Source: a virus
IMG/VR virus record: IMGVR_UViG_3300044617_002326
Location: 1 to 21,380 of that record
DNA: 21,380 bases
Strand: one strand, 5' to 3'
Part shown: one piece after another, positions 2,344-16,808 of the stretch
How positions within the stretch are numbered: the stretch's first letter is position 1
How the letters are laid out: every line of letters begins with the position of its first letter
Made by a program: the position numbers and the translations under genes
The notes under the pieces: generated by a model
What the model was told of the DNA's origin: nothing
The model's input: the letters and a program-made list of their open reading frames with translations, nothing else
Database searches by the model: none

Positions 2344-3234
2344 TTAATTTTGTCCTTTCATGTTTATTGAAAATTTACCAATTGCTGATTCTAAACTATC
2401 TTTAATAGAAGGCAACCCTAAATTAAGCTTTTCTAACTTCTCTGTTGAGAGAATGCAATTGCTTCTCTCTACTCGAAAGCTAGCTTCTTCTGTAGTAACA
2501 AATTTCCAATTGTGATTTGTTATACCGTATTTTTTAAGCAAATCGACAACTTCAGATCCATCAACCGAACCTTTATTAACTACGTTGTATACACCGTAAA
2601 ATTGATCTCTGTATGAAGGATCACAGTAGCGAACTAAAAATTTTTCTATAAAAACAAGTAGGTCGTCTACACAAGTAACAGAGTTTTGTTTAGAAATAAG
2701 ATTATTATAATTATAAATCTTGTATAGATAGTTTTTTGGCTCGTAAATGCTGTTAAAAGGGATTCTAATGCGAAATATGACACGTTTCATATCTCTGCTT
2801 AATTTTTCAAATGTATCTTTGGTTTTAGAATACGTAGAAGAATTAAAACTGTCTGCTCCAAAATTAGTTGGATCATCTTCTGTATATATTTTATCGTATC
2901 CTGAATATACACAACCAGATCCAATATGAATAATTGGAATGTTCAGTTCGTTGCAAACCTTTGTCATATAAAGGGGTGCCGTAACATTGTAAAAATAACA
3001 TTCATCCTTATAATCTTCGCATCCATCTACATTGGGGGTTCCAGTAAATCCACTGGTATTGATTATCCAATCAATTTCTCCTTCAGTATTTTTGAGATAA
3101 TTTTTTAATTGTGTTGGATTTGTATAGTCAAATACCTGCTTTGAGAAGTGAAATACGTTATTGGAACGGTCTAAGCTCAAATGCTTTGCTAAATAGTTTC
3201 CAATATATCCTTTGCCTAATATTAATATATTCAC
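2344..3234 (-). CDS. RmlD-like NAD(P)-dependent nucleotide-sugar reductase/epimerase
   Basis: 296 residues of the extended short-chain dehydrogenase fold. ILGKGYIGNYL near the N-terminus is the GxGxxG dinucleotide loop. INTSGFTGTPNVDGCE follows in the second Rossmann segment. HIGSGCVYSGYDK and the YSKTKD motif give the catalytic Ser/Tyr/Lys set. The overall pattern resembles dTDP-4-dehydrorhamnose reductase and the reductase/epimerase used by giant viruses to make UDP-rhamnose, so a 6-deoxyhexose donor is a fair guess; the exact sugar cannot be read. It starts with GTG directly behind a TTGACC-N16-TAAAAT promoter and heads the operon running down to the dCMP deaminase. Three glycosyltransferase-like genes lie immediately upstream. 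Confidence 0.8.
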   Translation of the reverse strand: MNILILGKGYIGNYLAKHLSLDRSNNVFHFSKQVFDYTNPTQLKNYLKNTEGEIDWIINTSGFTGTPNVDGCEDYKDECYFYNVTAPLYMTKVCNELNIPIIHIGSGCVYSGYDKIYTEDDPTNFGADSFNSSTYSKTKDTFEKLSRDMKRVIFRIRIPFNSIYEPKNYLYKIYNYNNLISKQNSVTCVDDLLVFIEKFLVRYCDPSYRDQFYGVYNVVNKGSVDGSEVVDLLKKYGITNHNWKFVTTEEASFRVERSNCILSTEKLEKLNLGLPSIKDSLESAIGKFSINMKGQN

Positions 3235-3268: not shown

Positions 3269-4219
3269 CTAAGATTTGAATTGTAATTGGTGATTAAATT
3301 TTTGAAGTTCTTTGTAAAAACTAGTGTTTTTAGCGTATTTCCAAAAATAATGTCCTAATGACGAATTTGAATAAAGCCAGGGTTTCGAAAGAACTCCTGC
3401 ATAATGAATTATACTAGGATTGTCATAGGCTGTCATATAATCAATGTAAACGTTCTCGGAAACAGCTGAACGTAAGTGTTTTGTTGAATTAATGACATTT
3501 AAATCTAAATTCCATTTCATATCTAATTCATATATGTCTTCGCTATACAAAGAGTTTAAAACATCTTGATCGCAAAGAATTGGTTGTTTTAATTCTGTTA
3601 GTTTTTTTATGCAAGATTGCACAAAATTATTTTTAATAGCTTTTTTTACATTTAATAACAACACTCCAGCATTAAAGTATTTTTCTTTTTTAACTTTTAT
3701 CTTGTTGTTTAGCCAATCCGCGAAAGTGGAACATTCTACACATAATTTTTTCATCATAACATCTCTAACTGCTCCGAGAATGTGATCTTTAATATTTATA
3801 TTGTAGAGTTCCGCAGCGTCATTCATTAAAACTAAATCCGAATCTAAGTATAAAACTTTATCGAAATTAGCAAATATGCTTGGTATAAACAACCTATAAT
3901 ACATTGCTATGTTTGCGTGTTTTGGAATAAAAAATATATTTGTGTCCAAGTGTTGCGTATAAACCCTCATATCAATAAACCTAACATTTGAGTTAGTAAT
4001 GCCTTTAATTTGTAACGTTATTTTGTTTTTTCCTTCTTCAGTAAAATCATCATTTAATATAAAAAAATCGTAGTTGTTCTTGTCGCATCCATTCTCTACG
4101 ATTGATTGCATAGTTACTGCTAAATAAGGAGCGTAATTGTTGTTGCAATTAAAAACTATTGGTATGACGTTATTTGCAAAGCTTGGCAATATGTTTTGCG
4201 TTGATTGATTTGACTCCAT
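3269..4219 (-). CDS. GT8-family glycosyltransferase (LPS galactosyl/glucosyltransferase type)
   Basis: 316 residues of GT-A fold. VIPIVFNCNNNYAPYLAVTMQSI (about 18-40) is the nucleotide-sugar entry of GT8 enzymes. KVLYLDSDLV (121-130) holds the metal-binding DSD at 126-128. YFNAGVLLLN (181-190), CDQDVLN (216-222), WNLDLNV (236-242) and IHYAG...KPW (271-281) complete the family pattern seen in RfaJ/WaaJ-type LPS transferases. No membrane segment is present. It probably transfers a hexose from a UDP-sugar to host surface polysaccharide or to a virion protein; the acceptor is unknown. It lies with two other DxD transferase-like genes upstream and a sugar reductase downstream. The 67-nt upstream gap has TATAAA 6 nt before the ATG but no convincing -35. 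Confidence 0.85.
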   Translation of the reverse strand: MESNQSTQNILPSFANNVIPIVFNCNNNYAPYLAVTMQSIVENGCDKNNYDFFILNDDFTEEGKNKITLQIKGITNSNVRFIDMRVYTQHLDTNIFFIPKHANIAMYYRLFIPSIFANFDKVLYLDSDLVLMNDAAELYNINIKDHILGAVRDVMMKKLCVECSTFADWLNNKIKVKKEKYFNAGVLLLNVKKAIKNNFVQSCIKKLTELKQPILCDQDVLNSLYSEDIYELDMKWNLDLNVINSTKHLRSAVSENVYIDYMTAYDNPSIIHYAGVLSKPWLYSNSSLGHYFWKYAKNTSFYKELQKFNHQLQFKS

Positions 4220-4286
4220 ACGCTCTTTATATTACATTTATTTAATTGTTTAAATATTTAAAAAATATTTTAAAACATATAAGCTG
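4220..4286 (-). promoter_or_regulatory. AT-only spacer with a possible -10 before the GT8 gene
   Basis: This 67-nt gap is almost entirely A and T. On the minus strand TATAAA (4231-4226) lies 6 nt before the GT8 ATG, the same spacing as the other promoters in this region. The -35 position reads TTAAAC, a poor match. AAATATTT-type short inverted repeats occur but have no GC, so I do not call a terminator. Confidence 0.3.
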
Positions 4287-5060
4287 TTAACAAATTGCGA
4301 GCTTTTCAGTAAATCTTTTTATTTGATTTTTCCAAAAAATGTGATGTTTTGCATCAAAAAAATGGGTAAATCCCTGCTTATAATAAATTGTGTCTGGATT
4401 AGATATATTTTCTATAGGTATATTACCTTCGTAGCGAATTTTGCTGAGTATTTGATATTGGAGAATAGACGTTTTGGATGTATTGTTTTGAGCTTCTTCT
4501 TTAGACCATTTTGTTTGAAAAAAGCTTTTATTGTTGTTGTTTAAAATTATGTTTAAACATTCTTTAGAGAAAGAATCTAAGCTTGTTAAATCTGTTCCTC
4601 CAATAATGTTTGGAAGAAAATTAACGCTGCTTGCATTATTGAGTGTATGATACGGACATTGAGTTAAAAAAAGAAATGTTTCTGGATATGATTCGTTTAC
4701 AATATCTTGTACAAAAAGCTTAGAGTATTCAAAATGATTAGGAATCTTATTCCATAAAAACACATCGTAATCTAAATGAATAAAAGGAACTCCTCTGTTT
4801 ACAGCTTCTTGTATTCCATATAATCTGGCTATATTTGGATGTTCCTTGTATATTGGTGAAAGGTTATCCAATGAAGTTAATGTCGAAATAGATGTAAATC
4901 CACAATCTCGAAATGCGTTTGCTCCATATGAATCTGTTAATAAATGACAGACTCCATAATGTTGCTTTATAAAATAACATGAAATTTTATGCATTAATAT
5001 TAAGTGATTCAAATCACAATATTCTCTACTACCAAACCAAAATGACATATATGGCACCAT
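4287..5060 (-). CDS. DxD glycosyltransferase-like protein, copy A of a tandem pair
   Basis: 257 residues. The HLDYDVFLW motif (95-103, DYD at 97-99) fits the metal and nucleotide-sugar binding DxD of GT-A enzymes, and NIIGGTDL at about 151-158 resembles the conserved GG turn further on. The start MVPYMSFWFG, LLTDSYG (40-46) and the C-terminal GFTHFFDAKHHIFWKNQI block are all shared with the next gene downstream in sequence coordinates (5068-5868). I recognise a phage/bacterial family of small predicted glycosyltransferases with a YSFW start and TD..G motif, without a known acceptor. The gap to the upstream paralog is 7 nt. No signal or membrane segment was seen. Confidence 0.6.
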   Translation of the reverse strand: MVPYMSFWFGSREYCDLNHLILMHKISCYFIKQHYGVCHLLTDSYGANAFRDCGFTSISTLTSLDNLSPIYKEHPNIARLYGIQEAVNRGVPFIHLDYDVFLWNKIPNHFEYSKLFVQDIVNESYPETFLFLTQCPYHTLNNASSVNFLPNIIGGTDLTSLDSFSKECLNIILNNNNKSFFQTKWSKEEAQNNTSKTSILQYQILSKIRYEGNIPIENISNPDTIYYKQGFTHFFDAKHHIFWKNQIKRFTEKLAIC

Positions 5061-5067
5061 TGGTTTG

Positions 5068-5868
5068 TTATGTTAAATTTAAAATTTTTGCAAGAAATGC
5101 AATTTGCTGGTCCCAAAATGAGCTATTTTTAGCTCCCCAAATGTGAGTGTATCCGTATTTAATACAATCTTCTTCTAGGGGAACTGCATTTGTTTGCATG
5201 CGATTTCTATCAAAAAGAGTTGTTACAACATTTTGCTTTTTTTGTTCCCAACACGCTAACAACCATTGCTCAGCAATAGCTGCTCTTTGCCAGTGTCCAA
5301 TTCCTCCATCAATAAAAAAATCTTTATTAAGTGGATGAAAAACAATGTCTAAAGAAAAATCGCAATAATTTTTTATAAAAGAACTGTTTTTTCCTCCAAA
5401 AATTCCCATGTTGTATGAATGGTTTGATATGTTGTTCTCTAATGTTGTTTTATACTTGCAATTGTTTAACATATAGTCAATTCCATAAAAGTGTGTAGCA
5501 TCATGTTCTATACTTTGTACAAAAATGTCAGCGTCTTGAATAAAATAAGGCAATTTTTGAAATAAAAATACGTCATAATCAAGGTGTAAAAAATGAATGT
5601 TATTTTCAGCTAAATGTTTGAAACAAAGTATTTTTCCCAAAGACCATGTTGCAGAATATTCGCTCGGAACGCTGTCTAGTTCTTTTAGTATTTGAACTTC
5701 AGTAAATCCACAGTCTTGAAATAAAGAACTTCCCTCAGAATCCGTCACTAAATAACAAGCTCCGTAGTGTTTTTTTGCAAAATACGCGGCTATTTTATGC
5801 ATTAATAATACAGTTTCCGATGGCTGTTTTTTATAGCCCTTGGACCAATAAGACAAATATGGAATCAT
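5068..5868 (-). CDS. DxD glycosyltransferase-like protein, copy B of a tandem pair
   Basis: 266 residues, paralogous to the gene at 4287-5060 along its whole length. Shared features include MIPYLSYW at the start, LLMHKIAAYFAKKHYGACYLVTD (21-43), DCGFT at 52-56, HLDYDVFLF with DYD at 97-99, GIFGGKN in the second half, and GYTHIWGAKNSSFWDQQI near the end. The identical DYD position in both copies supports a recent tandem duplication. It is first in the sugar cassette. The upstream sequence reads AGTAAGTA then AATAA then ATG, a weak variant of the late-promoter arrangement seen elsewhere here. Donor and acceptor are unknown. Confidence 0.6.
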   Translation of the reverse strand: MIPYLSYWSKGYKKQPSETVLLMHKIAAYFAKKHYGACYLVTDSEGSSLFQDCGFTEVQILKELDSVPSEYSATWSLGKILCFKHLAENNIHFLHLDYDVFLFQKLPYFIQDADIFVQSIEHDATHFYGIDYMLNNCKYKTTLENNISNHSYNMGIFGGKNSSFIKNYCDFSLDIVFHPLNKDFFIDGGIGHWQRAAIAEQWLLACWEQKKQNVVTTLFDRNRMQTNAVPLEEDCIKYGYTHIWGAKNSSFWDQQIAFLAKILNLT

Positions 5869-5907
5869 TTATTTACTTACTATATTTCACTATCGAGAGC
5901 TACACGT

Positions 5908-6312: not shown

Positions 6313-6321
6313 TTTATTTAC

Positions 6322-6458
6322 TTATTCAACCTTAATATCTTTTTTAGTTTTGGCAAAGTCATATAAAAAAACCGAAATGCTAGAGCTTCGATCACGAACT
6401 TGAATTTTAATTGCAGGTGTTTCATATGAGCTATATGCTATAATGTTTGTTTGGACAT
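6322..6458 (-). pseudogene. Frameshifted mini-gene (about 45 codons)
   Basis: An ATG at 6458-6456 gives MSKQTL and an immediate TAG. The -1 frame from codon 4 or 5 continues as NIIAYSSYETPAIKIQVRDR, then a hydrophobic SSSISVFLYDF and a basic tail ending DIKVE before TAA at 6324-6322. That second frame has no ATG, GTG or TTG of its own. Read together with one shift, it gives a natural-looking 45-residue protein. A perfect TATAAATA late octamer lies 8 nt upstream of the ATG, and the gene sits 9 nt before the next start, as expected for a real gene in this compact genome. A single-base deletion, a sequencing error or programmed frameshifting would all explain it. No classic slippery heptamer is present. 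Confidence 0.45.
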
Positions 6459-6466
6459 TACAACAT

Positions 6467-6474
6467 TATTTATA
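6467..6474 (-). promoter_or_regulatory. T4-type late promoter octamer (TATAAATA)
   Basis: An exact TATAAATA on the minus strand, overlapping the TAA stop of the 124-residue gene and lying 8 nt before the ATG of the frameshifted mini-gene. It matches the T4 late -10 consensus. It could drive the mini-gene, the 134-residue gene and the sugar cassette late in infection. Confidence 0.5.
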
Positions 6475-6844
6475 TTGTTGATTTTTTGTTGTCAGTTTTT
6501 AACTTTAAAAAATCTTTCCAAAATTGGATGTTGTCGCTCATTCTGTCACAATATTCCCAATCTCTCATTTGAATAGAATCTTCTAGACTTTTTTCATGGT
6601 TTTCTAAAAATTTTTTAGAGGCTTCCTTAAAGTCAGAAGTTACTAGTTCCTTTAACAAATCTAATACAGGCTTTACATCGTTATCATCCATTTGAAATGT
6701 AATTTCTGTTCCGTCATATTTTGATCCGTAATTAAACGACAATTTGAGTTCAACAGGAACTCCGAATTCTCCAAAAGACTTTCCGGAAATATCTGAAAAA
6801 TATACTGCTTCCTCTTTTTCTGCTGGCTTAATAACTTTTTTCAT
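6470..6844 (-). CDS. Unknown 124-residue acidic protein
   Basis: The N-terminal half looks like beta strands: AVYFSDISGKSFGEFGVPVELKLSFNYGSKYDG (about 13-45) and TEITFQMDD. The C-terminal half is helical and charged (PVLDLLKELVTSDFKEASKKFL and onward). I do not recognise the family. It has no signal peptide or membrane segment. The start lies 2 nt after the stop of the secreted small protein upstream, and its stop overlaps a TATAAATA octamer, so it closes a small unit with the lipoprotein and secreted protein. Confidence 0.55.
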   Translation of the reverse strand: MKKVIKPAEKEEAVYFSDISGKSFGEFGVPVELKLSFNYGSKYDGTEITFQMDDNDVKPVLDLLKELVTSDFKEASKKFLENHEKSLEDSIQMRDWEYCDRMSDNIQFWKDFLKLKTDNKKSTI

Positions 6845-6846
6845 GG

Positions 6847-7131
6847 TTAAAACTCTATTCCAATTGTAGTAAATACATTGACTCTAATCTCATTTTGAAA
6901 ATGGTCAATTTCTGGGTTTATTACGTTTGTTAACACAACTGACCATTTCTTATGATTTGGCTCGTAAATTTTGTGATTAATTTGCATGTTTAATTCTGTT
7001 TTAAGACTCTCGGAGTTGCTTTTTGAAAAATTAGTTTCCCCAAACATCTTCATGAGTTTTGGTTCATCTATAGACGGAGAAGAAAATACATTAAGAGCTG
7101 TGCAGAGAAAGCAAATAATAAAAGCTTTCAT
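6847..7131 (-). CDS. Small secreted protein (94 residues)
   Basis: MKAFIICFLCTALNVFSSPS is a Sec signal peptide with a short basic n-region, a hydrophobic core and a likely cleavage after residue 17-18. The mature part is about 76 residues, with alternating polar and hydrophobic strands; it ends NEIRVNVFTTIGIEF. The alternating strand and terminal Phe resemble the last-strand signal of outer-membrane beta-barrel proteins, but the protein is too short for a barrel alone. It directly follows the lipoprotein gene (7 nt gap), so the two may act together in the envelope. Function unknown; this is inference from sequence features only. Confidence 0.55.
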   Translation of the reverse strand: MKAFIICFLCTALNVFSSPSIDEPKLMKMFGETNFSKSNSESLKTELNMQINHKIYEPNHKKWSVVLTNVINPEIDHFQNEIRVNVFTTIGIEF

Positions 7132-7138
7132 GTTTTTA

Positions 7139-7519
7139 CTAATCTAAAAATTCTGCAAAATTTACGTTTCTGTCCTCGTGTCTAGCGGCAACTGCTGCTC
7201 TAGCAATCTGTAGTGGATTATCGACATATGCTCTAACCCTATAACTTCCCCAAAAATCATAAGTCCAAAGTATATTTTGTCCAGGAGGATATAGGTATGC
7301 AACTATTGCGTGTCCGTTGTATTTTTGTTTTTTAGGATCGTACCAAGTGTATCTAACTACTTTTGCCCATATATCGTATTTTTTAAGTCCTTGCTTAAAT
7401 GCAATTGCGGTAGGAAGACAAGCGTTTTTCTTTGTTTCCATCCAACTCTCTGGGTTTTTTGGTGTTGTTTGGCATCCCACAAAAAATATGCATGTAAAAA
7501 AAAGACATAGTGTTTTCAT
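7139..7519 (-). CDS. Lipoprotein with a Cys/His/Asp set (transglutaminase- or papain-like candidate)
   Basis: 126 residues. MKTLCLFFTCIFFVGCQTT is a lipoprotein signal with lipobox FVGC and lipidated Cys16; Gln17 at +2 suggests outer-membrane sorting. The mature domain carries ACLPTAIAF with Cys34, NGHAIVAYLYP with His70 and LWTYDFWGS with Asp88, in the order and spacing of a papain/transglutaminase-like catalytic triad. A phage lipoprotein of this kind could modify cell-wall or surface proteins or block superinfection; that is inference. It is the first gene of a pair with the secreted 94-residue protein. An exact TATAAATA lies 5 nt before the ATG. Confidence 0.6.
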   Translation of the reverse strand: MKTLCLFFTCIFFVGCQTTPKNPESWMETKKNACLPTAIAFKQGLKKYDIWAKVVRYTWYDPKKQKYNGHAIVAYLYPPGQNILWTYDFWGSYRVRAYVDNPLQIARAAVAARHEDRNVNFAEFLD

Positions 7520-7524
7520 ATAAC

Positions 7525-7532
7525 TATTTATA
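7525..7532 (-). promoter_or_regulatory. T4-type late promoter octamer before the lipoprotein gene
   Basis: An exact TATAAATA on the minus strand, followed by GTTAT and the ATG. With T4 late initiation a few nt downstream of the octamer, the mRNA would start at or very near the AUG. It overlaps the C-terminal codons of the macro-like gene. Confidence 0.55.
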
Positions 7533-7929
7533 CTAAATTATCTTTCCAACAAAAAATTACATTGTCATATTTCTCTAAAGTGAGAACTAGATTGTGATGA
7601 ACTAATAATTCCCAAATTCTGTATTTGTTGGCTAAACCAGCTCCAAGCTTAGATATATAAAACGTTTTATTAGGATGCTTTTTAACAATAGCTTCTAATT
7701 TTTTAAGCTCTTCAAAAAAAATTAGCGAATATTCTTCCGGTCTGTAGAACGAACCCTCGTTGTTGTCTGGAAATTTTTTTGTAATAAAACCTATTGCATG
7801 AGGATGATCTCGAAGACAAACTGCTCCGCCCTTACCTCGTCTTTGTAAATTATCTCCAAAAACAAAATAACTTGTCGGATTATTGTCTAAAAATTGCCAA
7901 TCAATTGTTATATCTTTATACTCAGCCAT
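7528..7929 (-). CDS. Macro-domain-like phage protein
   Basis: 133 residues. VFGDNLQRRGKGGAVCLRDH (23-42) resembles the Asn and Gly-rich ligand loop of macro domains (xGNxxGRGGAA type). FYISKLGAGLANKYRIW (90-106) resembles their second glycine-rich loop. I recall a phage/bacterial family with this FGDN...GGKGGA signature but no proven activity. Macro domains bind or remove ADP-ribose, so reversal of a host ADP-ribosylation defence is a possible role. The gene lies between the nuclease and the lipoprotein gene. Confidence 0.5.
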   Translation of the reverse strand: MAEYKDITIDWQFLDNNPTSYFVFGDNLQRRGKGGAVCLRDHPHAIGFITKKFPDNNEGSFYRPEEYSLIFFEELKKLEAIVKKHPNKTFYISKLGAGLANKYRIWELLVHHNLVLTLEKYDNVIFCWKDNLV

Positions 7930-7956
7930 AATTTTTAATTAAATATTAATCGAGAA

Positions 7957-8313
7957 TTACTTGATAGTATATCTTACAGCTAAACCTTCTTCAATCAACT
8001 GCTCATTAACACTTTTGGTAGTGTTGGGAAGAAAGAGCTCGGCCAACCAACGTCCATATTTTTCTTTATTATCTTTGTGTGTTTTGATGATAATATTTTT
8101 TTTATTTACTAATTGAATTAAGCGTTCTTTAGCAATGTTTGCTTGATTTTTAGATGAACCCTTTAATTCAGGAGCATTTATGCCCAGCAAGCGAAAAGAC
8201 TGTTTTTTAAGGCATACACCAAAACCAAGATCTACGTCAGCTGTAACCGTATCTCCATCATAAACATCGATTATGAATGCAGAATAGGTGAATGACTGCT
8301 GATTGTTCATCAT
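7957..8313 (-). CDS. Staphylococcal-nuclease-like endonuclease (TNase/SNase domain)
   Basis: 118 residues, a nearly minimal SNase (OB-fold) domain. DVYDGDTVTADVDLG (16-30) holds the metal-binding Asp at 19/21. FRLLGINAPEL (40-50) gives catalytic Arg41 and Glu49. EKYGRWLAELF (84-94) gives Arg88. These match Arg35, Glu43 and Arg87 of staphylococcal nuclease. NEQLIEEGLAVRY closes the fold. No signal peptide, so it probably acts in the cytoplasm, for example on host DNA or RNA. The start is uncertain: two ATGs are adjacent and AAGGA touches the first, so the second is slightly better spaced. It follows gp19 by 26 nt. Confidence 0.85.
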   Translation of the reverse strand: MMNNQQSFTYSAFIIDVYDGDTVTADVDLGFGVCLKKQSFRLLGINAPELKGSSKNQANIAKERLIQLVNKKNIIIKTHKDNKEKYGRWLAELFLPNTTKSVNEQLIEEGLAVRYTIK

Positions 8314-8339
8314 TCCTTTTTAGCTTAAACTTTTAAATA

Positions 8340-8906
8340 TTAACTTGGGAAAGGTGCTCTGTCGCTTTCGTTAGTTTTTCCTGCAGAAGTAACTCTCCAG
8401 TATTGATATGCTATTGTAGCCTGGATTTGAACAACGGTTCCTGTATCGCCAATATTGTATGCGGCATCACCAAGATTTTGAACCCAGACACCATACATGA
8501 TGTATGTTCTAATCATAGCTCTTTGTTTATCCATTAAATGGAAAGACAATTGAGAGTTTGTTCCAGGAATTCCATATCTACCCTTAGAGTTCGCATCATC
8601 AAACAATATTCTTAGCGACTCCTCTAAGCGAGACCTAATATAATAACTTTGATCACATCTAAATGTAAGTTGGTAACCAGCAGAACCTGGATATTGAACG
8701 GTTCCAGGAACGTTAAAGGAAAGTCCCATGTATGGAACTGGCACGTTTGTTATTTGCTTTCCGGGTAGTGAGGCTGTCTCTACATAAACCAAATCTTCAT
8801 CTTTGAGAAAATTTGTTGTTCCTATTTGCCCTAAAGCAAATTGAAACTGTCTAGCAAAATCATTCTTTACTGCTGCTGAGTAGAAGGCTGTAATATCTTG
8901 GTTCAT
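8340..8906 (-). CDS. 19: Tail tube protein gp19
   Basis: 188 residues (T4 gp19: 163). DITAFYSAAVKNDFARQFQFAL opens as in T4-type tube monomers. VYVETASLPGKQITNVPVPYMGLSFNVPG (about 41-69) is the conserved core with the ASLPG loop, and YQLTFRCDQSYYIRSRLEESL matches the second tube segment. Many copies stack into the inner tube of the contractile tail. It follows gp18 by 24 nt, as in T4. GATAAATA, one base from the late octamer, lies 10 nt before the ATG. Confidence 0.9.
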   Translation of the reverse strand: MNQDITAFYSAAVKNDFARQFQFALGQIGTTNFLKDEDLVYVETASLPGKQITNVPVPYMGLSFNVPGTVQYPGSAGYQLTFRCDQSYYIRSRLEESLRILFDDANSKGRYGIPGTNSQLSFHLMDKQRAMIRTYIMYGVWVQNLGDAAYNIGDTGTVVQIQATIAYQYWRVTSAGKTNESDRAPFPS

Positions 8907-8916
8907 AATGTAATTT

Positions 8917-8924
8917 TATTTATC
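8917..8924 (-). promoter_or_regulatory. Late-promoter-like octamer before gp19
   Basis: GATAAATA on the minus strand, in the 24-nt gap between gp18 and gp19 and 10 nt before the gp19 ATG. It has one mismatch to TATAAATA. Confidence 0.4.
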
Positions 8925-8930
8925 TAATTG

Positions 8931-11240
8931 TTAAATTAATTCCTGGAAGTCTTGTCCTGTACGAGTGGCAATAAAGTTGACCAAAATAAACTCAGCTGTT
9001 CTGACCGGTTTAATGTAAATATCAACAATCAACTCGTTTTGATCAATAGTATCAGGAGTGTTATTTCTTTGATCAGCTACAATCAAATAATCGTAAAGGC
9101 CTTCTGTTTGTTTGGCCATTTCAAATATTGGAGTAATGACTGCTACTAAACGTGATCTAGTAAAGTCGGTATTTGGCTCAAAAACAAAGTATTTAAGAGT
9201 TCTTTGAGTTGCTCTTTCTAAATATAAAAATAATCTACGAACGTTTATTCTGTCAAATGCTGATGGTCTGGTTTGTAGTGTTTTTTGTCCCATTACCACG
9301 TGACCATCTCCGTTAAAGAAAACAACAGGATTTACTGAAATTTCATAGAGTCTGTCTCGTTGCTTTTGATTTGGATTAAATGCTATATCTAATGCATTAA
9401 ACACACCTCTAGTTAAACCAGCAGGAGCAGACCAAGGTTGAGCAACAGCATCATTGCGAGCAAATATAGCTGAGGCATATCCAGAAAACGGCATCCAAAA
9501 CCTTCTGCTAGTAAACATATCCATAATTTTAATCCAATTACCGTACATTGCAGCATAATTGGATTCAAACGCTGATTGTTCTCTAAGAGGTTTGTAGATA
9601 TCTGAAGTAAAATCTTTACTCTTTAATTCTGCTATCTTTGCATCTCTTCCGTTAACAAATGTTTGTCTTAGAGGATCAATAATAGCAACGCAGTCTTTAC
9701 GTACGTTTTGAGCGAAATTTATTAATGTTGTTGTAATTGCTTTCCAATTCTGTAATAAGTCTTTATTATCTGGCTTTGCAACAAACTTTTCATCGTCGAA
9801 TGCTATGTCTTTATTTGTTTCAGTATTAGCAAATATTGTAGAAAGTCCACAGTCTGTTATAACGTCTATTTGTATATCATCTACGCACTCTAAAGGCCTT
9901 AAAGCTCTATCGAGCTTAAATTGAACGTTTCCTATGCGCTTGCTGTTTTCAGCTGCTCTTGTGTCAGGAGAATAAATTCCTAAAGGCATCAATACTTTAG
10001 CACTTTCGTGTACCGTAAATCTAGCAGTTGGAAAAGGACTTCCATTACTTGTCCAGTCAAACTGCTTAGAAATTATAGGATTAATAAACATTTTTACTGT
10101 AGGAGAATTGCTGTTGATTAGATCTTCTACAAAAGCGTTTGAAAGAAGTCCTCCATTTGGGCTGACCTGTCTTCTATTATAGTCAAATGAACCAATATAT
10201 TTTTCTGATCTTCCTAAAGTCAGTAATGCTGGATCGGCTGTGGATCTACGAATCTTGAAAATGCCTAAAGAAACATGATCTTGATATCTCTCAGTTTCGT
10301 ATCCAACGAATCCTACCTTTTCTAAACTTTCTGAAATTGAAGTAATTCCTCTTTCACTTTCTAATTTTGTGGTATCCAGTTGAAAGTCCAAACGATTTTC
10401 AGGAATATCTGCTTGTATTGGAGTACCGTCAATCGGATCTGCTCCAATAAACGTATTCATTGCTCTAATGGAATCAAAGTCAGGAGAAGTTGATGAAAGA
10501 GTTGCAAGATTGTCTGCAAATCCTATATAATGACCTTCTGCTAACTCATTGATGTTTGATTGTATGTCGTTAAACACGACAAACCCAGCATCAATTGTCC
10601 CTACATCTATTACAATTTTTCTTCCATTAGAATCTACTGCAGGAAGTCCTGTAGTTGGGTCTATTTCATATACTGCGTTCCACTGAGATGATCCGGGATT
10701 TACGACCATGTTCAAACCAGTAATTGGATCGCTATCGAGTGTAGGATTAACTGATGTATTTCCCCAAGGAATTCCAGCCGTTTTAAACATTTCATATTGC
10801 TCTTCGGTAAAGGTAAATGCTCGAGGAGCTCCAACTTGCCACTCTACAACTGCTGGTGAAATAACTATAGTGGATCCAGTTACAGGATCTAGACCAGTCA
10901 CTTCTGGTCTGATACCAGATGCCATTGGATAAAACAAACCAGTTGTTCCTGCTGAAAAATCAGATCCTTTGTTATCACCATAGGGTAGACGAAGGGCTGC
11001 AAGAACACCAGGAGAATTCAAAACTTCTCTGCACGAATAATAGAAATAACGTTCTGCTGGAGAAGTAGGAATTCCGAACACAGCTTCTAATTCACTAGCT
11101 GATGTAATAATTAATGGCTCATTAACTGGACCTTGTGGAGCAAAACCAATGACGAGGCACGTTGTTCCAATTGGTAAATTTGCTCTTAAGGAAAGATCTT
11201 TTTCAGTAATTTGTACTCCAGGCGATTGAATAATTCTCAT
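8931..11240 (-). CDS. 18: Contractile tail sheath protein gp18
   Basis: 769 residues, about 110 longer than T4 gp18 (659). The N-terminus IIQSPGVQITEKDLSLRA is typical of sheath proteins (xxSPGVxxxExD). YRxxNPVVFF-like SVNPVVFFNGDGHVVMGQKTL (about 646-666) and the INVRRLFLYLERA segment near residue 680 are the conserved C-terminal sheath domain that forms the contractile fibre. Residues about 115-275 hold four DP-x-(T/D)-G motifs (DPVTG 118, DPITG 171, DPTTG 194, DPIDG 268) in what looks like an inserted surface region. AATAAGTA lies 6 nt before the ATG as a weak late-promoter match. It follows the tube-like virion protein by 12 nt. Confidence 0.93.
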   Translation of the reverse strand: MRIIQSPGVQITEKDLSLRANLPIGTTCLVIGFAPQGPVNEPLIITSASELEAVFGIPTSPAERYFYYSCREVLNSPGVLAALRLPYGDNKGSDFSAGTTGLFYPMASGIRPEVTGLDPVTGSTIVISPAVVEWQVGAPRAFTFTEEQYEMFKTAGIPWGNTSVNPTLDSDPITGLNMVVNPGSSQWNAVYEIDPTTGLPAVDSNGRKIVIDVGTIDAGFVVFNDIQSNINELAEGHYIGFADNLATLSSTSPDFDSIRAMNTFIGADPIDGTPIQADIPENRLDFQLDTTKLESERGITSISESLEKVGFVGYETERYQDHVSLGIFKIRRSTADPALLTLGRSEKYIGSFDYNRRQVSPNGGLLSNAFVEDLINSNSPTVKMFINPIISKQFDWTSNGSPFPTARFTVHESAKVLMPLGIYSPDTRAAENSKRIGNVQFKLDRALRPLECVDDIQIDVITDCGLSTIFANTETNKDIAFDDEKFVAKPDNKDLLQNWKAITTTLINFAQNVRKDCVAIIDPLRQTFVNGRDAKIAELKSKDFTSDIYKPLREQSAFESNYAAMYGNWIKIMDMFTSRRFWMPFSGYASAIFARNDAVAQPWSAPAGLTRGVFNALDIAFNPNQKQRDRLYEISVNPVVFFNGDGHVVMGQKTLQTRPSAFDRINVRRLFLYLERATQRTLKYFVFEPNTDFTRSRLVAVITPIFEMAKQTEGLYDYLIVADQRNNTPDTIDQNELIVDIYIKPVRTAEFILVNFIATRTGQDFQELI

Positions 11241-11246
11241 AAAAAT

Positions 11247-11254
11247 TACTTATT
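11247..11254 (-). promoter_or_regulatory. Weak late-promoter-like element before gp18
   Basis: AATAAGTA on the minus strand, 6 nt before the gp18 ATG; two mismatches to TATAAATA. The same eight bases with the same 6-nt spacing occur before the 134-residue gene at 6312. Called only because of position and recurrence. Confidence 0.25.
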
Positions 11255-11879
11255 ATTTCTTTGGATATTTTTTTGGACGATACATATTTAATTGTCCGAA
11301 ATGAAAATCGGCTGTAGTTTCATTAAGTTGGCTATCTCTGTAAGAATAAGAAATTCCTTTTAAAGAAGTTATAAAGCAATTCATATACATAAATTCCATA
11401 ATGACGTCATTATATTCATTGAGAGCTAAGATAGATAAATTAGTTTGATATTCAGCGTTTCGTCCAGATTCTGCTATATCCATACGATTAGAGGGTGGAG
11501 CAGAATATGAACTATTAATAGGGTCGTTTAATATCGAAAGCCATTTCCATAAAATATAATAATTTTTAAAGTCGTTATCAATAATAAAGTTAACCGTTAA
11601 AGGAGGATATGAAGGTCTACTATAAGATGACCAATTTGTACCTTGTCCGCCAAATCTCAATTCGATTGGAGAAACTATTGAATCAGGAACAATTGTTCCA
11701 TGAACAGTTGCTTGTAAATAATCAACGTCCAAATCAGGATCTTGTTTGCTCATTTTTCGCAAAACTTGTGGCAAAGTCATTACCAATAAAAATTTATCTT
11801 TTGCTGATGTGTTTAATGGTGATTGAAACAAAGGATTAGTGCAAAAAGGTTTTCCGTCTGTGCAAATTTGTTGTTGCAT
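11253..11879 (-). CDS. Probable tail-tube-like virion protein between gp17 and gp18
   Basis: 208 residues. After a Cys-containing N-terminus (CTDGKPFCTNPLF), the body reads as a beta-rich domain. It contains VDYLQATVHGTIVPDSIVSP, PLTVNFIIDNDFKNYYILWKWL (about 94-115), then TNLSILALNEYNDVIMEFMYMNCFITSLKGISYSYRD. The pattern of a strand with a conserved (F/Y)xNYYxLWKWL helix and a C-terminal LKGI.YSYRD strand pair is what I expect from gp19/gp54-type tube-fold proteins. I therefore infer a tube paralog, perhaps a tube initiator or tail terminator. T4 has no gene between 17 and 18. TATAATTA lies 5 nt before the ATG. Confidence 0.5.
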   Translation of the reverse strand: MQQQICTDGKPFCTNPLFQSPLNTSAKDKFLLVMTLPQVLRKMSKQDPDLDVDYLQATVHGTIVPDSIVSPIELRFGGQGTNWSSYSRPSYPPLTVNFIIDNDFKNYYILWKWLSILNDPINSSYSAPPSNRMDIAESGRNAEYQTNLSILALNEYNDVIMEFMYMNCFITSLKGISYSYRDSQLNETTADFHFGQLNMYRPKKYPKK

Positions 11880-11884
11880 AAACC

Positions 11885-11892
11885 TAATTATA
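11885..11892 (-). promoter_or_regulatory. Late-promoter-like octamer before the tube-like gene
   Basis: TATAATTA followed by GGTTT and ATG on the minus strand. The 16 bases from octamer to start codon differ at one position from those before the small gene at 14274. A perfect TATAAT plus a TTGACA 19 nt upstream (11917-11912) could also make a sigma70 site, although that spacer is long. Confidence 0.45.
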
Positions 11893-13879
11893 AAAACTTA
11901 AATCCTAAATCTGTCAAATCGTCTACATCTAAATCAAATTTATTAAGTATTTCATCCTCATTAAAAACAGATGTATAATAATTTGATGTTGGTTGCTTTT
12001 CTGTTAATTCAAACTCTTCAACTTGTTTGTTGTTATTATTTAAATCCTTAATTCCATAATATTCTGGATAGACCTCCCAATAATTATTACTGACTATAGA
12101 AAGAGGCTTGTTTTGAGCATCAAAGTGCTCAATTTGGAAATATTGTTCGCAAAGTGAAGGCTCTAAAATGAAGAGAGCCCAAACTAAAGACATTACCCTA
12201 TCGTCAAAAAAGGAGTCACTTTTCTTTTTGAATACTCCATGCGGAAATCTTACAAACGTCTCGAATTCTGAAATGGTACTAGCATCGTTAATTTTTACAC
12301 ACTGTAAATGATTTACCCAATATCTCATGTTTTGGATTCCGTCAAATTTAATATTTTGATGAGATAAAATTCCTAAAGATCTAGTTTTATTGTATCTGTC
12401 TTGTTCTGATACCTTTGAATATCCAACAATCTTCTCGTATTGATGAGTGTAATAAAGAGCATCAATAACTTGTGCTCCACAATTATTTCTTTCAATTAAA
12501 ATTGGAGGTAACCCCCAAGATTCAATTAGTAGTTTGAGTTTGTTTGCGAAATGGAAAGGTTCGATGTCTGGTGAAGCATATATAGCAACTTGTTCAATAT
12601 TTTTTAAATCTGTTATGTCTAATACTTGTGCTACAGAAGATGCTCTGCCTATTCCTTCTCCAACATCAACACCTATAACATAAAGTTTTTTTATATCTGG
12701 TTTTTGAAAGACTTTGTAAGTTCCATCTTCAGAAATCCATATAGGATCTTTTTTAGTTTTTTTAAAAAATTCTATAATATTGCTTCCTACAGCTGTTGAA
12801 TAGCTGTCTAAGAAAGTATTACCAAATTCTTGTTGAAATCTTTCCTCTGATCCAAGTAATTGTATTTGATTGGATTTCCACACTTCATCTCGTCCTGGCT
12901 TATCCCACCAATCAATTCTTGAAGCATGCCAATCCGGTAAAGTTCCGCTTTCTGCTCCTGAGAATATTTCATAAAATTTATTTCCAACTCCGTTTGGCGT
13001 ACTGACTAATAAAATTTTAGATGTTTTACCGGATGAAGTAGCTGGAATAACAGAAGACCAAAATTCTTCTAAAATATGACTTTCTATAAAAGCTACCTCA
13101 TCAATAGCTAAAGTATTTAAGCTGTCTCCTCTAATTGATGTAGCGGTTGTGGTCGATACAACAATACTTGAATCGTTAGCAAAAGTTACTCCTGTTTTTC
13201 CGTAGTCTTTAACTCCTGGTTTGATGTAGTTTGGCAGTTGTTCATAAGCCATTCTAACTCTCTTAAAAATATTAATTGCAGTAGATTCTTTGTTTGCGAC
13301 AATTGCTGCTCTATGATCGTCATTGAAGCAGGTCATCCAAAGAACAAAAATTGTTAAAAGGGTCGATTTCCCAGATTGTCTTGAAGCTAAATTAACAGTA
13401 AATCGGTTATTCACCATATTTAACAACATATTTTTTTGAGCTTCATATAATTTGATTTTTTGCTTACCGTTGTCTATATTAACAATGTAAAAAAAGTTTT
13501 CAGCAAAATGTACAACATCTTGTTTGCACTTTTCAAGTTGCTCAAGCATTGTTAGCGTATATTTGTAGGGAGCTCCAGCTATTGGAATATTTTTTGAACC
13601 TCTATAATAGTAAGATGGATCGATTGGCTCTGAAAAAATTTCTGATTCTTTTTGGAGTTGAACGTATCCGGGCTCTAAAAACTTTTCATCGGATAATTCC
13701 TGTTTAAAGATATTTTCTTCTTGTTTGTTATTTTGTAAATTTGCAGCAGTTGATAGTTCAAAATTACTCTTTGCTGGTCTTCCTCTTTGCTTGTTCTGTT
13801 TTTCTTTTTTGGGTCGACCTCTTTTGGGTTTATTTTTTGAACCTTTTGGTCTGCCTGGTCTCTTTATAAAAGGGTTCAT
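11888..13879 (-). CDS. 17: Terminase large subunit gp17 with N-terminal AT-hooks
   Basis: 663 residues (T4 gp17: 610). ATPase domain: Walker A SRQSGKST at 166-173, Walker B LAIDE at 257-261, and a coupling segment VSTPNGVGN at 292-300. Nuclease domain: VIGVDVGEG with Asp405, LIERNN with Glu463, and FFDDRVMSL with Asp559/560, the RNase H-like metal triad. It drives genome packaging and cuts concatemers at the portal. Unusual feature: residues 1-37 carry three AT-hook cores (GRP at 9-11, 21-23, 33-35) in a Lys/Arg-rich context, exactly 12 residues apart. The start overlaps the upstream small gene by 4 nt. Confidence 0.95.
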   Translation of the reverse strand: MNPFIKRPGRPKGSKNKPKRGRPKKEKQNKQRGRPAKSNFELSTAANLQNNKQEENIFKQELSDEKFLEPGYVQLQKESEIFSEPIDPSYYYRGSKNIPIAGAPYKYTLTMLEQLEKCKQDVVHFAENFFYIVNIDNGKQKIKLYEAQKNMLLNMVNNRFTVNLASRQSGKSTLLTIFVLWMTCFNDDHRAAIVANKESTAINIFKRVRMAYEQLPNYIKPGVKDYGKTGVTFANDSSIVVSTTTATSIRGDSLNTLAIDEVAFIESHILEEFWSSVIPATSSGKTSKILLVSTPNGVGNKFYEIFSGAESGTLPDWHASRIDWWDKPGRDEVWKSNQIQLLGSEERFQQEFGNTFLDSYSTAVGSNIIEFFKKTKKDPIWISEDGTYKVFQKPDIKKLYVIGVDVGEGIGRASSVAQVLDITDLKNIEQVAIYASPDIEPFHFANKLKLLIESWGLPPILIERNNCGAQVIDALYYTHQYEKIVGYSKVSEQDRYNKTRSLGILSHQNIKFDGIQNMRYWVNHLQCVKINDASTISEFETFVRFPHGVFKKKSDSFFDDRVMSLVWALFILEPSLCEQYFQIEHFDAQNKPLSIVSNNYWEVYPEYYGIKDLNNNNKQVEEFELTEKQPTSNYYTSVFNEDEILNKFDLDVDDLTDLGFKFL

Positions 13880-14274
13880 GGCCGATTACTAACAATTTCG
13901 ATAAAAGTAGATCTCAATAAATCGACCAAAGCTGCCTCATCTTTTGATGTAGGTGTGTTAAATACAACTACTTTTTCGTTTTCTAAGGAATATCCTATTA
14001 GTGCAAAACAGCTCATGTACTCTTCTGTTAAAGAGGCTAAATGAGCGAATTCTTTAAATTTTGTTTTTTTATCGTTGATGTAATCGTTTTTATAACGAAG
14101 AAGAGCTTGAGCCAACAATTGTTCTACTAAATTAGGATTGTTTTTAACATTTTCGCTTAAGCTTGGCGTCTGAGTTGCTTGTAAGTTGTTGGTGAGGGAA
14201 TTGGTAGAGATCTTGCTCTTCTTTTTTTGAGGAGATTTGCCTTTTTTTTTATTTGATGAGTTCGGCTCAGACAT
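13876..14274 (-). CDS. Unknown 132-residue protein upstream of gp17 (small terminase candidate by position)
   Basis: I place the start at the ATG of MSEPNSSNKKKGK. A TTG 21 nt upstream is also in frame, but it would place the start codon upstream of the late octamer. The first 45 residues are Lys/Ser/Asn-rich and disordered. Residues about 50-132 are a compact domain with a helix (NLVEQLLAQALLRYKNDYIN), then YMSCFALIGYSLENEKVVVFNTPTSKDEAALVDLLRSTFIE. T4 gp16, the small terminase (164 residues), occupies this slot, so that role is possible. I see no gp16 signature, and it may be an unrelated conserved phage protein. It overlaps gp17 by 4 nt and has an exact late octamer 5 nt before the ATG. 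Confidence 0.5.
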   Translation of the reverse strand: MSEPNSSNKKKGKSPQKKKSKISTNSLTNNLQATQTPSLSENVKNNPNLVEQLLAQALLRYKNDYINDKKTKFKEFAHLASLTEEYMSCFALIGYSLENEKVVVFNTPTSKDEAALVDLLRSTFIEIVSNRP

Positions 14275-14279
14275 AAACC

Positions 14280-14287
14280 TATTTATA
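14280..14287 (-). promoter_or_regulatory. T4-type late promoter octamer before the gp17 operon
   Basis: An exact TATAAATA on the minus strand, then GGTTT and ATG. It is placed where the late packaging and tail genes begin, and again the predicted transcript start coincides with the start codon. It also argues for the ATG at 14274 over the upstream TTG. Confidence 0.6.
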
Positions 14288-14651: not shown

Positions 14652-14674
14652 GCAGGATATTTAATCAGCCGTGC

Positions 14675-14688: not shown

Positions 14689-15408
14689 CTATTTAACCAG
14701 TCCGAAGATCATATAGCAAGTAAATTGTGTTTGAAATTTAAAAATTTTTAATTCGTGATTTACGTTTGCTTTTATATGCTCATTCGTAAAAGTAGTCAAA
14801 ATCAAACTTTGAGAGTTTATTACAAAAGTTGATTCTGGTAAAGGTTTTCCGGTAAATTTGTTCGAAACTTCTATGCGAACTTCATTAATATTTGCTTTTT
14901 GGTCGTCAGCCAACCTACAAAAAACGGACGAATCCTCGGTGTGAAAGTACATTTTTTCTGAGTCAGGAATAATTGTATTGAGTCTCAACAACTCTGAGAA
15001 TTGTTTTTTTGAAATAGTAAACTCAGTATCATACTCGACTGATTTTAACTTATTTTCGTTTAGTCCCTTTTTACTAATTGAATACACTTCATCGAGCAAG
15101 TGATATTTGAATGAAATGAGTTTGTGTTTATATACAATTTTGTTATCAGTGATGACAAAAACTGGCTCATTTTCCTCTATAGTATTAACGAGCCTAACAA
15201 ACGATTTGCAATCAGGAATAATGCACTTGATTGGATCTCCTTCAATATCACACGGAGCATTACAAATTAAAACTACAGAATTGTCTGCAGAAGAAACAAT
15301 TGTAGAGATTTCTTTAACCTTAAAATCAATAGTTACATTGTCGGTAAGTTTTGATATCGGAATTAAAAAACTATCCAAAAATATCTTTTTGTCAATTTTA
15401 ATTGTCAT
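14689..15408 (-). CDS. 45: Sliding clamp gp45
   Basis: With the start at the ATG of MTIKIDKKIF the protein has 239 residues (T4 gp45: 228). A TTG 36 nt further up is in frame but lies deeper in the preceding gene, and MTIKIDKK fits clamp N-termini. The chain has the two-domain beta-alpha-beta clamp layout: KIFLDSFLIPISKLTDNVTIDFK, STIVSSADNSVVLICNA near residue 35, and in the second half TEFTISKKQFSELLRLNTIIPDSEKMYF, closing with FKFQTQFTCYMIFGLVK. It is the trimeric processivity ring for the polymerase and, in T4, the activator of late transcription. It overlaps the upstream 154-residue gene by 11 nt. Clamp loader genes 44/62 are not in the window. Confidence 0.8.
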   Translation of the reverse strand: MTIKIDKKIFLDSFLIPISKLTDNVTIDFKVKEISTIVSSADNSVVLICNAPCDIEGDPIKCIIPDCKSFVRLVNTIEENEPVFVITDNKIVYKHKLISFKYHLLDEVYSISKKGLNENKLKSVEYDTEFTISKKQFSELLRLNTIIPDSEKMYFHTEDSSVFCRLADDQKANINEVRIEVSNKFTGKPLPESTFVINSQSLILTTFTNEHIKANVNHELKIFKFQTQFTCYMIFGLVK

Positions 15409-15862
15409 GGCGAATGCTGCTATTTCTTTTAAAAACGTTATCAAAAATTTCGATGTTGTTAGCTATTTTAGTCAAGTTTTGATTAATTGACTTCAGCTCG
15501 TTTATGAGCAACGAAAATGAATCATTTGAAATTGAAATAGAAGAGTTATTCGTTTGGAGCTGAGAATTGTTAGGAGATCCTGTTTGATGGGGAGTGTTGC
15601 TAATTGGATCATTTTCTTGAGGAAGTGGATAGGATGCCTCTGCAGCTCTTTGTAATTCTTCAATCATTCTTTTTTCAGAAGAGTTATTGTGTGAAAAAGG
15701 CGATGCTTCTCCTTCAAGAAGGATTTTTTTAGGATCTAATCTTAATGAGTTCCTAACCTTGTTGCCTTCGCCGTCAAAAGTATTTTCATCGACTCTCAAG
15801 AGTTCACTTCCAAATATTTGGGCAATTGTTGCTGCTGCTATTTTATCTGATTTATTATTCAT
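15398..15862 (-). CDS. Unknown 154-residue protein translated with gp45
   Basis: The N-terminal 55 residues (SDKIAAATIAQIFGSELLRV through PKKILLEGEASPF) look ordered. Residues about 80-110 are Asn/Ser/Gln/Pro-rich and disordered. SLLINELKSINQNLTKIANN at about 120-139 is a leucine-patterned helix, probably a coiled coil. I do not recognise it. It is first in the gp45 operon, directly behind a terminator and promoter, and its end overlaps gp45. A clamp or late-transcription partner is conceivable, but no gp33- or gp55-type clamp-binding C-terminus is visible. Confidence 0.6.
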   Translation of the reverse strand: MNNKSDKIAAATIAQIFGSELLRVDENTFDGEGNKVRNSLRLDPKKILLEGEASPFSHNNSSEKRMIEELQRAAEASYPLPQENDPISNTPHQTGSPNNSQLQTNNSSISISNDSFSLLINELKSINQNLTKIANNIEIFDNVFKRNSSIRHDN

Positions 15863-15868
15863 GGTTTC

Positions 15869-15896
15869 ATTCTATTTTGTATTTTTGTTATGTCAA
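15869..15896 (-). promoter_or_regulatory. Sigma70-like promoter of the 154-residue gene / gp45 operon
   Basis: Minus strand: perfect TTGACA (15896-15891), 16-nt spacer, TAGAAT (15874-15869), then GAAACC and ATG. It lies immediately downstream of the FolE2 terminator. The predicted start of transcription falls on the ATG, implying a leaderless mRNA. Confidence 0.65.
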
Positions 15897-15962: not shown

Positions 15963-16808
15963 TTAATGAAGTTCTCTGCCAGCATTAATAACGCTTACAG
16001 CAACTGATTCATGGATGCTTTCGTAATGGTTAACTACAACCAAGTAATCCTTGATGCGCTTGTCAAGATCGACTTGAAGTTTTTCGGCTACTCTTCTGAC
16101 CATGTCTTCCACGAAGACAGGATTTTCATACATAAGTTCTGTTTGGTAGGCTTCATCAACTCGCTTTAATGCGTTAACCATTGGAGCTGATGCACTTTTT
16201 TCAACTGCCTCAATCAACTCTTCAAACCAAAATATATTATTGTTTGCCTTGTTCTCCTTGTTTAACTCAACTGTTACATCAGCATACGATTGTTGATTGT
16301 GTGCTCCGTAATCACTTATTTCTTTCGAACAAGGACAAAGTGAGGCATATAGCACATTTGCACTCAAATAATATCTCTTAACGCCGTTAATAAGACGTCC
16401 TTCATATGCTCCGGAATATGACATATGTGATTTGATTTTAGAAACAGGAGCCTCTTTCAGCATAAAATAATCGAACTTGATCTTAACGTATGCATTTTGA
16501 GATTTCAGTCTTGATTGACACTCATCTAGTATAAGAGATACTAATTCATCAATTCTATGAGTTTTGTTTGCTATAGCTTCCTCAACAAGGATTCTATATC
16601 GACTCATGTTCGTTCCCTTAACTTCAGGAGTTAAGTCTGTATACAAGCTGATTGTTGCTTTTGTTGGATTGACTGTCCCATCTCTCTTAATTATTTCCAT
16701 CGGAACAATAATATTTCTAGATCCTACTTTTGGTATATACAGCTTTGGAAAGCCGTCAACCGTATTTTGAATATCTGGAATATCTGTATTTGTTTTTATT
16801 CTAGGCAT
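15963..16808 (-). CDS. folE2: GTP cyclohydrolase IB, FolE2 type
   Basis: 281 residues, full length for the family. ASLCPCSKEISDYGAHNQQS (155-174) is the FolE2 signature; Cys158 and His170 are 12 apart like the metal-binding Cys/His pair of bacterial enzymes. NPVFVEDMVRRVAEKL (229-244) and VVNHYESIHESVAV (258-271) supply the conserved Glu and His residues near the active site. Known reaction: GTP to 7,8-dihydroneopterin triphosphate, the first step of tetrahydrofolate and of queuosine/7-deazaguanine synthesis. It sits between gp32 and a terminator. No QueD, QueE, QueC, transglycosylase or thymidylate synthase is in the window, so the pathway it serves is undecided. The family is typically less dependent on zinc than FolE. 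Confidence 0.93.
   Translation of the reverse strand: MPRIKTNTDIPDIQNTVDGFPKLYIPKVGSRNIIVPMEIIKRDGTVNPTKATISLYTDLTPEVKGTNMSRYRILVEEAIANKTHRIDELVSLILDECQSRLKSQNAYVKIKFDYFMLKEAPVSKIKSHMSYSGAYEGRLINGVKRYYLSANVLYASLCPCSKEISDYGAHNQQSYADVTVELNKENKANNNIFWFEELIEAVEKSASAPMVNALKRVDEAYQTELMYENPVFVEDMVRRVAEKLQVDLDKRIKDYLVVVNHYESIHESVAVSVINAGRELH

Follow-up and report, generated by a model that had tools for sequence, protein, structure and literature searches.

The DNA examined here is an environmental viral fragment of 21,380 bp with 32% G+C (IMG/VR record IMGVR_UViG_3300044617_002326, hereafter the window), and the elements of interest are copies and variants of the T4 late-promoter octamer, TATAAATA, that lie immediately in front of start codons. 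The main genes are all on the minus strand, in the order partial uvsX, gp41, a gene for a DHHA1-type protein, gp32, FolE2, gp45, an open reading frame (ORF) at the position of gp16, gp17, a gp3/tail-tube-like gene, gp18, gp19 and then accessory genes. The homologues of gp17, gp18, gp19, gp32, gp41 and gp45 place the fragment in the T4 superfamily. A DNA-level search with the window matched no named phage, and the identity of its gp17 to those of named phages reaches no more than about 35%. No tRNA gene was found in the window or in the relatives scanned, and no Rfam family in the window. Genes were called mechanically as the longest ORFs from the first ATG, and the late and early classes used throughout denote homology to T4 genes in iterative profile searches, not expression.

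The octamer sites are listed in Table 1, where d is the number of nucleotides (nt) between the end of the motif and the start codon. Every octamer string quoted in an earlier sequence-only reading of this DNA is present where it was placed, including TATAATTA ahead of ATG 11879 and GATAAATA ahead of gp19, and the string of octamer, GGTTT and ATG was found at ATG 14274 and, with TATAATTA, at ATG 11879. That reading had put exact octamers before three starts. Two of these hold, at 14274 and 7519; the third, at 6467-6474, is intergenic, because the frame from ATG 6458 has only six codons (ATG TCC AAA CAA ACA TTA TAG) and is followed by a frame of roughly 35 codons near 6425. The exact octamer occurs five times in all, always on the coding strand, and two copies (3793 and 19899) lie within genes. 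A longer, TTG-started frame of the gp16-position ORF (14295) would begin upstream of its octamer. The earlier reading had overlooked the TAAGTA variants before gp18 and before the 6312 and 5868 genes, as well as ATTAAATA before ATG 14651. ORFs related to the 14651 gene (MANK...) in the relatives L006, L007 and L008 have TAAATA at 5 nt, and the gp18 element is common to the same three contigs, likewise at 6 nt. The motif at the gp3/tail-tube-like gene is kept in few relatives (6/50) and overlaps a possible TTGACA-N19-TATAAT promoter.

Table 1. Genes and promoter-like elements of the window
Feature	Position	Strand	Basis or remark
Exact octamer TATAAATA	14280..14287	-	5 nt (GGTTT) ahead of ATG 14274
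Exact octamer TATAAATA	7525..7532	-	5 nt (GTTAT) ahead of ATG 7519
Exact octamer TATAAATA	6467..6474	-	Intergenic; overlaps stop codon of ORF 6470-6844; no leaderless gene start
Octamer variant ATTAAATA	14658..14665	-	6 nt ahead of ATG 14651
Weak octamer variant TATAATTA	11885..11892	-	5 nt (GGTTT) ahead of ATG 11879, gp3/tail-tube-like gene
Octamer variant AATAAGTA	11247..11254	-	6 nt ahead of gp18 ATG 11240
Octamer variant GATAAATA	8917..8924	-	10 nt ahead of gp19 ATG 8906
Octamer variant AATAAGTA	6319..6326	-	6 nt ahead of ATG 6312
Octamer variant AGTAAGTA	5874..5881	-	5 nt ahead of ATG 5868
Sigma70-type promoter TTGACA-N16-TAGAAT	15869..15896	-	6 nt between end of -10 hexamer and ATG 15862; non-late, predicted to be leaderless
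Sliding clamp gp45	14689..15444	-	Iterative hidden Markov model search including T4 gp45; start without late octamer
ORF upstream of gp17, position of T4 gp16 (small terminase)	13876..14274	-	By position only; predicted leaderless
Tail sheath gp18	8931..11240	-	PHROG 23, E 2.5e-73
Tail tube gp19	8340..8906	-	PHROG 45, E 2.1e-22
126-residue ORF with lipoprotein-like N-terminus MKTLCLFFTCIFFVGC	7139..7519	-	Sequence; predicted leaderless

Octamers close to starts had been estimated to exceed chance by far; their position does so, their total number does not. Of the 31 window genes, 7 have TAA[AG]TA, the T4 late-promoter core, 5-10 nt ahead of the start codon (0.59 expected), and none of 3000 dinucleotide shuffles reached seven. 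The exact octamer stands at exactly 5 nt before two genes (0.007 expected). When the octamer was permuted, TATAAATA gave 6 matches at d=5, whereas all 56 permutations averaged 0.57, and most of the next-best strings overlapped this motif or were shifted copies of it. The octamer count itself was not enriched over both strands of the window (5 vs. 3.0 expected; 15 of 100 shuffles reached 5). This last result, the base composition (about one third G+C) and the presence of the upstream gene's stop codon inside the motif at 82 of 764 sites would all suit a chance origin, in which A/T-rich intergenic spacers and TAA stops yield TAAATA near ATG. The shuffles, the permuted octamers and the other T4-like genomes contradict such an origin and the early-gene control described below refutes it, so that we consider it extremely improbable. 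A stop-codon artefact as the source of the motif was rejected because so few of the sites are involved.

A search of whole genomes for the distance from motif to start codon had been suggested beforehand; run on relatives of the window, it was positive. The relatives came from two scans (24, then 80 listed loci, some of them shared), the second of which gave 571 confirmed terminase relatives, and longer contigs were analysed over their whole length. An initial set of 17 contigs without duplicates had 254 genes; in it, the numbers of genes with TAAATA before the first ATG at d=3 to d=9 were 0, 0, 23, 16, 10, 8 and 6. A second group of 64 contigs, with 949 genes, had TAA[AG]TA before 4, 4, 65, 62, 38, 29, 36 and 34 genes at d=3 to d=10; the number fell to 11 by d=14 and stayed low at greater distances. 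When all start codons were counted, ATG rose from 5 at d=4 to 121 at d=5, where GTG was found 12 times and TTG once; AUG is thus strongly preferred. ATT, ATA and ATC showed no step between d=4 and d=5 in the clade contigs. The near-complete contig G013 (217 kb), which is the sister of the window in a gp17 tree, has 31 genes at d=5. Some relatedness among the contigs means that these counts do not represent independent events, and significance is overstated by the Fisher p-values given below.

The clade motif has the core TAARTA, with A as second base of the octamer in 60% and a free first base. In T4, the late octamer begins at -13 (PMC2988020). If the octamer spans -13 to -6 as in T4, an ATG at d=5 has its A at +1. 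Of the genes with d>=10, 60% have A at the predicted +1 and 12% have G. Positions -5 to -1 of these genes are A/T-rich and G-poor, with G at 2-5% in four of the five positions and 13% at -2, as compared to 9-18% in genes without the motif.

The sites had also been said to fall on late and not on replication genes, and a strong contrast between the two classes was found in two separate contig sets. T4 homologues were split into virion genes and replication or nucleotide genes. In the first set, the motif at d=5-9 precedes 47/107 virion genes vs. 0/79 replication genes (p=3.5e-14). In the separate set, the corresponding numbers are 105/312 vs. 1/164 at d=5-9, and 149/312 vs. 2/164 at d=5-14 (Fisher p=7e-32). 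The motif there precedes gp19 in 38/40 cases, gp18 in 38/43 and gp13 in 5/5.

Shine-Dalgarno (SD)-like motifs were found at 0-11% of genes per long clade contig and at 4.6% in the second set, compared with 61% in T4. SD-poor Bacteroidota use A-rich contexts ahead of the start codon (PMC6847099). TAARTA at 5-9 nt before ATG might accordingly be a non-SD ribosome-binding element, an A/T-rich context suited to an SD-poor host, with transcripts starting further upstream. However, within one and the same set of genomes the element stands at about half of the virion genes and at hardly any replication gene, a division not expected of a signal that serves translation in general. With the ATG at 10-14 nt, the downstream composition still stays anchored to the motif. 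The element has the sequence of a known late promoter, and gp55 is encoded in the clade. A general translation element was rejected on the early-gene control, and we consider this account improbable; since many virion genes have the motif and replication genes almost never do, the element is better understood as a putative promoter.

Sequence comparison identified two proteins of late transcription, gp55 and gp45. In T4, gp45 is an activator of late transcription. The late sigma factor gp55 is not encoded on the 21-kb window and was found in nine longer contigs (G002, G003, G004, G011, G013, G014, G015, G018 and a contig of a Paludibacteraceae metagenome-assembled genome (MAG)). The gp55 of G013 matched the PHROG late sigma family with E 1e-17 and T4 gp55 in PDB (7d7c) with E 0.002. 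In the near-complete G013, G014, G015 and G018, both gp55 and gp45 were found and gp33 was not. By eye, the T4 clamp-binding ending (SLDFLYE) is not obvious in the C-termini of clade gp55.

Taken together, the sequences suggest with a probability of about 0.86 that the elements are gp55-type, T4-kind late promoters that make leaderless or ultra-short-leader mRNAs. The consensus NATAA[A/G]TA and the A/T-rich stretch would be recognised by the phage gp55 together with host RNA polymerase, and each late gene or small late operon of the clade would tend to be served by its own promoter. The start site, the sixth base after the octamer as in T4, would be the A of the AUG or precede it by as much as about 9 nt. 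Such messages would have no room for an SD helix, so ribosomes would have to start by recognition of a 5'-terminal AUG. The lower edge at 5 nt, the late/early contrast, the presence of gp55, the scarcity of SD motifs and the A or purine at the predicted +1 all agree with this; from the motif, its spacing and late-gene specificity, the near-absence of SD motifs and the presence of gp55 and gp45, we infer recognition by gp55, the position of +1 and the mode of translation. The earlier claim that transcripts start at the AUG is supported by the available sequence tests, and its word leaderless is too narrow, because many members have d=6-14; a leader of 0-9 nt fits and is the more exact description.

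Several points weigh against this interpretation. The co-activator gp33 gave no significant match, even with filters off and even in long contigs; this protein is small and fast-evolving, so its absence is not proven. Some sub-clades have d of 10-14, which makes them short-leadered and not leaderless, and a minority of motif sites may be incidental through the stop-codon overlap. The gene for the major capsid protein, gp23, has no abutting octamer in G013, G014 and G015. This last point would favour an account in which the octamers are real late promoters and initiation differs slightly from T4 or read-through predominates, so that most late mRNA has ordinary leaders. With genes so closely spaced and in the same orientation, some read-through from upstream promoters must occur. 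The edge, which falls at 5 nt exactly, is nevertheless what a +1 at that base predicts, and read-through messages would also be without SD motifs and gain no evident advantage; we give ordinary leaders little credence.

Two further observations concern gp18 and gp23. The gp18 octamer is 11-16 nt from the ATG in some sub-clades (L172-L200 and other clade contigs), and leader length would vary by sub-clade. In G013-G015 (L260-L288), an A-rich stretch with a AAGGAAAA-like sequence precedes gp23.

The clade shares with T4 (Straboviridae; gp55/gp33/gp45) the octamer core, the A/T-rich segment just downstream, the genes for gp55 and gp45 and the limitation of the octamer to late genes (PMC2988020, PMC7892883). 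It differs in that the first octamer base is not conserved and gp33 was not detected in long contigs. The nearest TAAATA of T4 late genes is mostly 12-46 nt off, compared with 5-14 nt in the clade, and 28/35 T4 late genes have an SD motif, whereas the clade has almost none. The cyanophages S-PM2 and Syn9 (NATAAATA) share the degenerate first base and T4-type machinery (PMC2984593), but their late-gene TAAATA is mostly 15-40 nt away and never at 5-9. No TAAATA at d=5-8 was found in T4, KVP40, S-PM2, Syn9, XG4 or phiM9. The Pelagibacter phages HTVC008M and Mosig resemble the clade, with TAAATA exactly 5 nt before ATG in 11 and 6 genes, respectively, virion genes included; nine such cases checked in HTVC008M are deposited gene starts. 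Unlike the clade, these phages show the arrangement in a small gene subset only, and about half of all their genes keep SD motifs. Rhizobium phage RHph_I1_18 has a few cases (4 genes at d=5). In the gp17 tree with nine reference phages, the clade is monophyletic (100/100) and the pelagiphages stand beside the cyanophages, outside the clade. This suggests that the arrangement probably arose at least twice, separately in pelagiphages and in the clade.

In the leaderless genes of Actinobacteria, Deinococcus-Thermus and Archaea, the promoter -10 element lies one helical turn before the AUG and no SD motif is present. Those are cellular genes read by a housekeeping sigma factor, whereas the clade would use a phage late sigma factor, and sigma70-type promoters besides, in a T4-like phage. 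The abutting sigma70-type promoters had been overlooked in the sequence-only reading. In the clade, TTGAC clusters at 28-34 nt ahead of ATG, with 89 occurrences vs. 14.9 expected, and it does so too in the Paludibacteraceae MAG contig (31 vs. 10.2 expected). The pattern is TTGAC-N16..20-TAnnnT, with TAnnnT hexamers that end 6-7 nt before ATG, and by the usual sigma70 geometry these promoters are predicted to be leaderless. Among annotated early genes, gp32 is the commonest near such a promoter (12 cases, -10 hexamer 4-15 nt before ATG). No TTGAC peak was found in T4, KVP40, S-PM2, Syn9, XG4 or phiM9; Mosig has a small one. The Bacteroidota sigma-A box TAnnTTTG showed no enrichment ahead of clade genes (170 vs. 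165 in shuffled sequence).

These abutting sigma70-type promoters suggest that the architecture may be a property of the whole genome and not a peculiarity of gp55 promoters, and it probably reflects the host's translation. A wider proposal, which we hold tentatively and think somewhat more likely wrong than right, is that the clade has almost wholly abandoned leadered translation: host-type (TTGAC-N16..20-TAnnnT) and gp55-type start sites would both lie at or just before the AUG, and early, middle and late proteins would all be made from leaderless mRNAs, perhaps because host ribosomes favour 5'-terminal AUGs, as a cause or as something exploited. Flavobacteria would be obvious host candidates because they are SD-poor, yet only 5.5% of their mRNAs are leaderless (PMC9723704), and TAnnTTTG, which gave no enrichment above, is their box. 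A search of bacterial genomes for a host with the FolE2 protein gave no match.

We found no report of an abutting late-promoter arrangement in the open-access literature, subscription journals being outside the search. T4 late transcription is the textbook case of promoters followed by leaders that contain SD sites. A large, uncultured environmental clade of T4-like phages appears to fuse the late promoter with the start codon; if so, much of the virus particle would be made from messages without the usual ribosome-binding leader, and a replication-coupled phage sigma factor would be tied to leaderless translation. The abutting motif would then be an internal signal that identifies late genes and their true start codons, and could improve gene calling in clade genomes. 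Whether a late gene programme runs on leaderless mRNA is directly testable in the cultured phage HTVC008M.

Terminase alignment brought in one contig from a bacterial genome, the phage-like JAGBVI010000001.1 (375,692 bp) of the Paludibacteraceae MAG mentioned above; no other terminase match was found among 296 genomes of its phylum. This contig (L239, L241-L259; yak cecum MAG) has T4-like structural and replication genes and 52 TTGACA...TAnnnT promoter-like sites. Its gp17 is split by one in-frame TAG and several other genes are split, which suggests TAG recoding in a jumbo T4-like phage.

In the window itself, neither the gp16-position ORF nor the 126-residue ORF matched any family. PHROG 45 is matched by two window genes, at 11253-11879 and 8340-8906, and iterative searches also matched the first of these to T4 gp3; the tube and terminator/stabiliser genes thus look paralogous. 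The FolE2-type GTP cyclohydrolase gene (15963-16808; PF02649, E 2e-66) lies between gp32 and gp45; a role in DNA base modification or in folate supply is possible. Three glycosyltransferase-like genes stand in a row at 3269-5868, one of them DUF6734 and the others named by eye, and a nucleotide-sugar epimerase/reductase-like gene (2344-3234), also named by eye, adjoins them.

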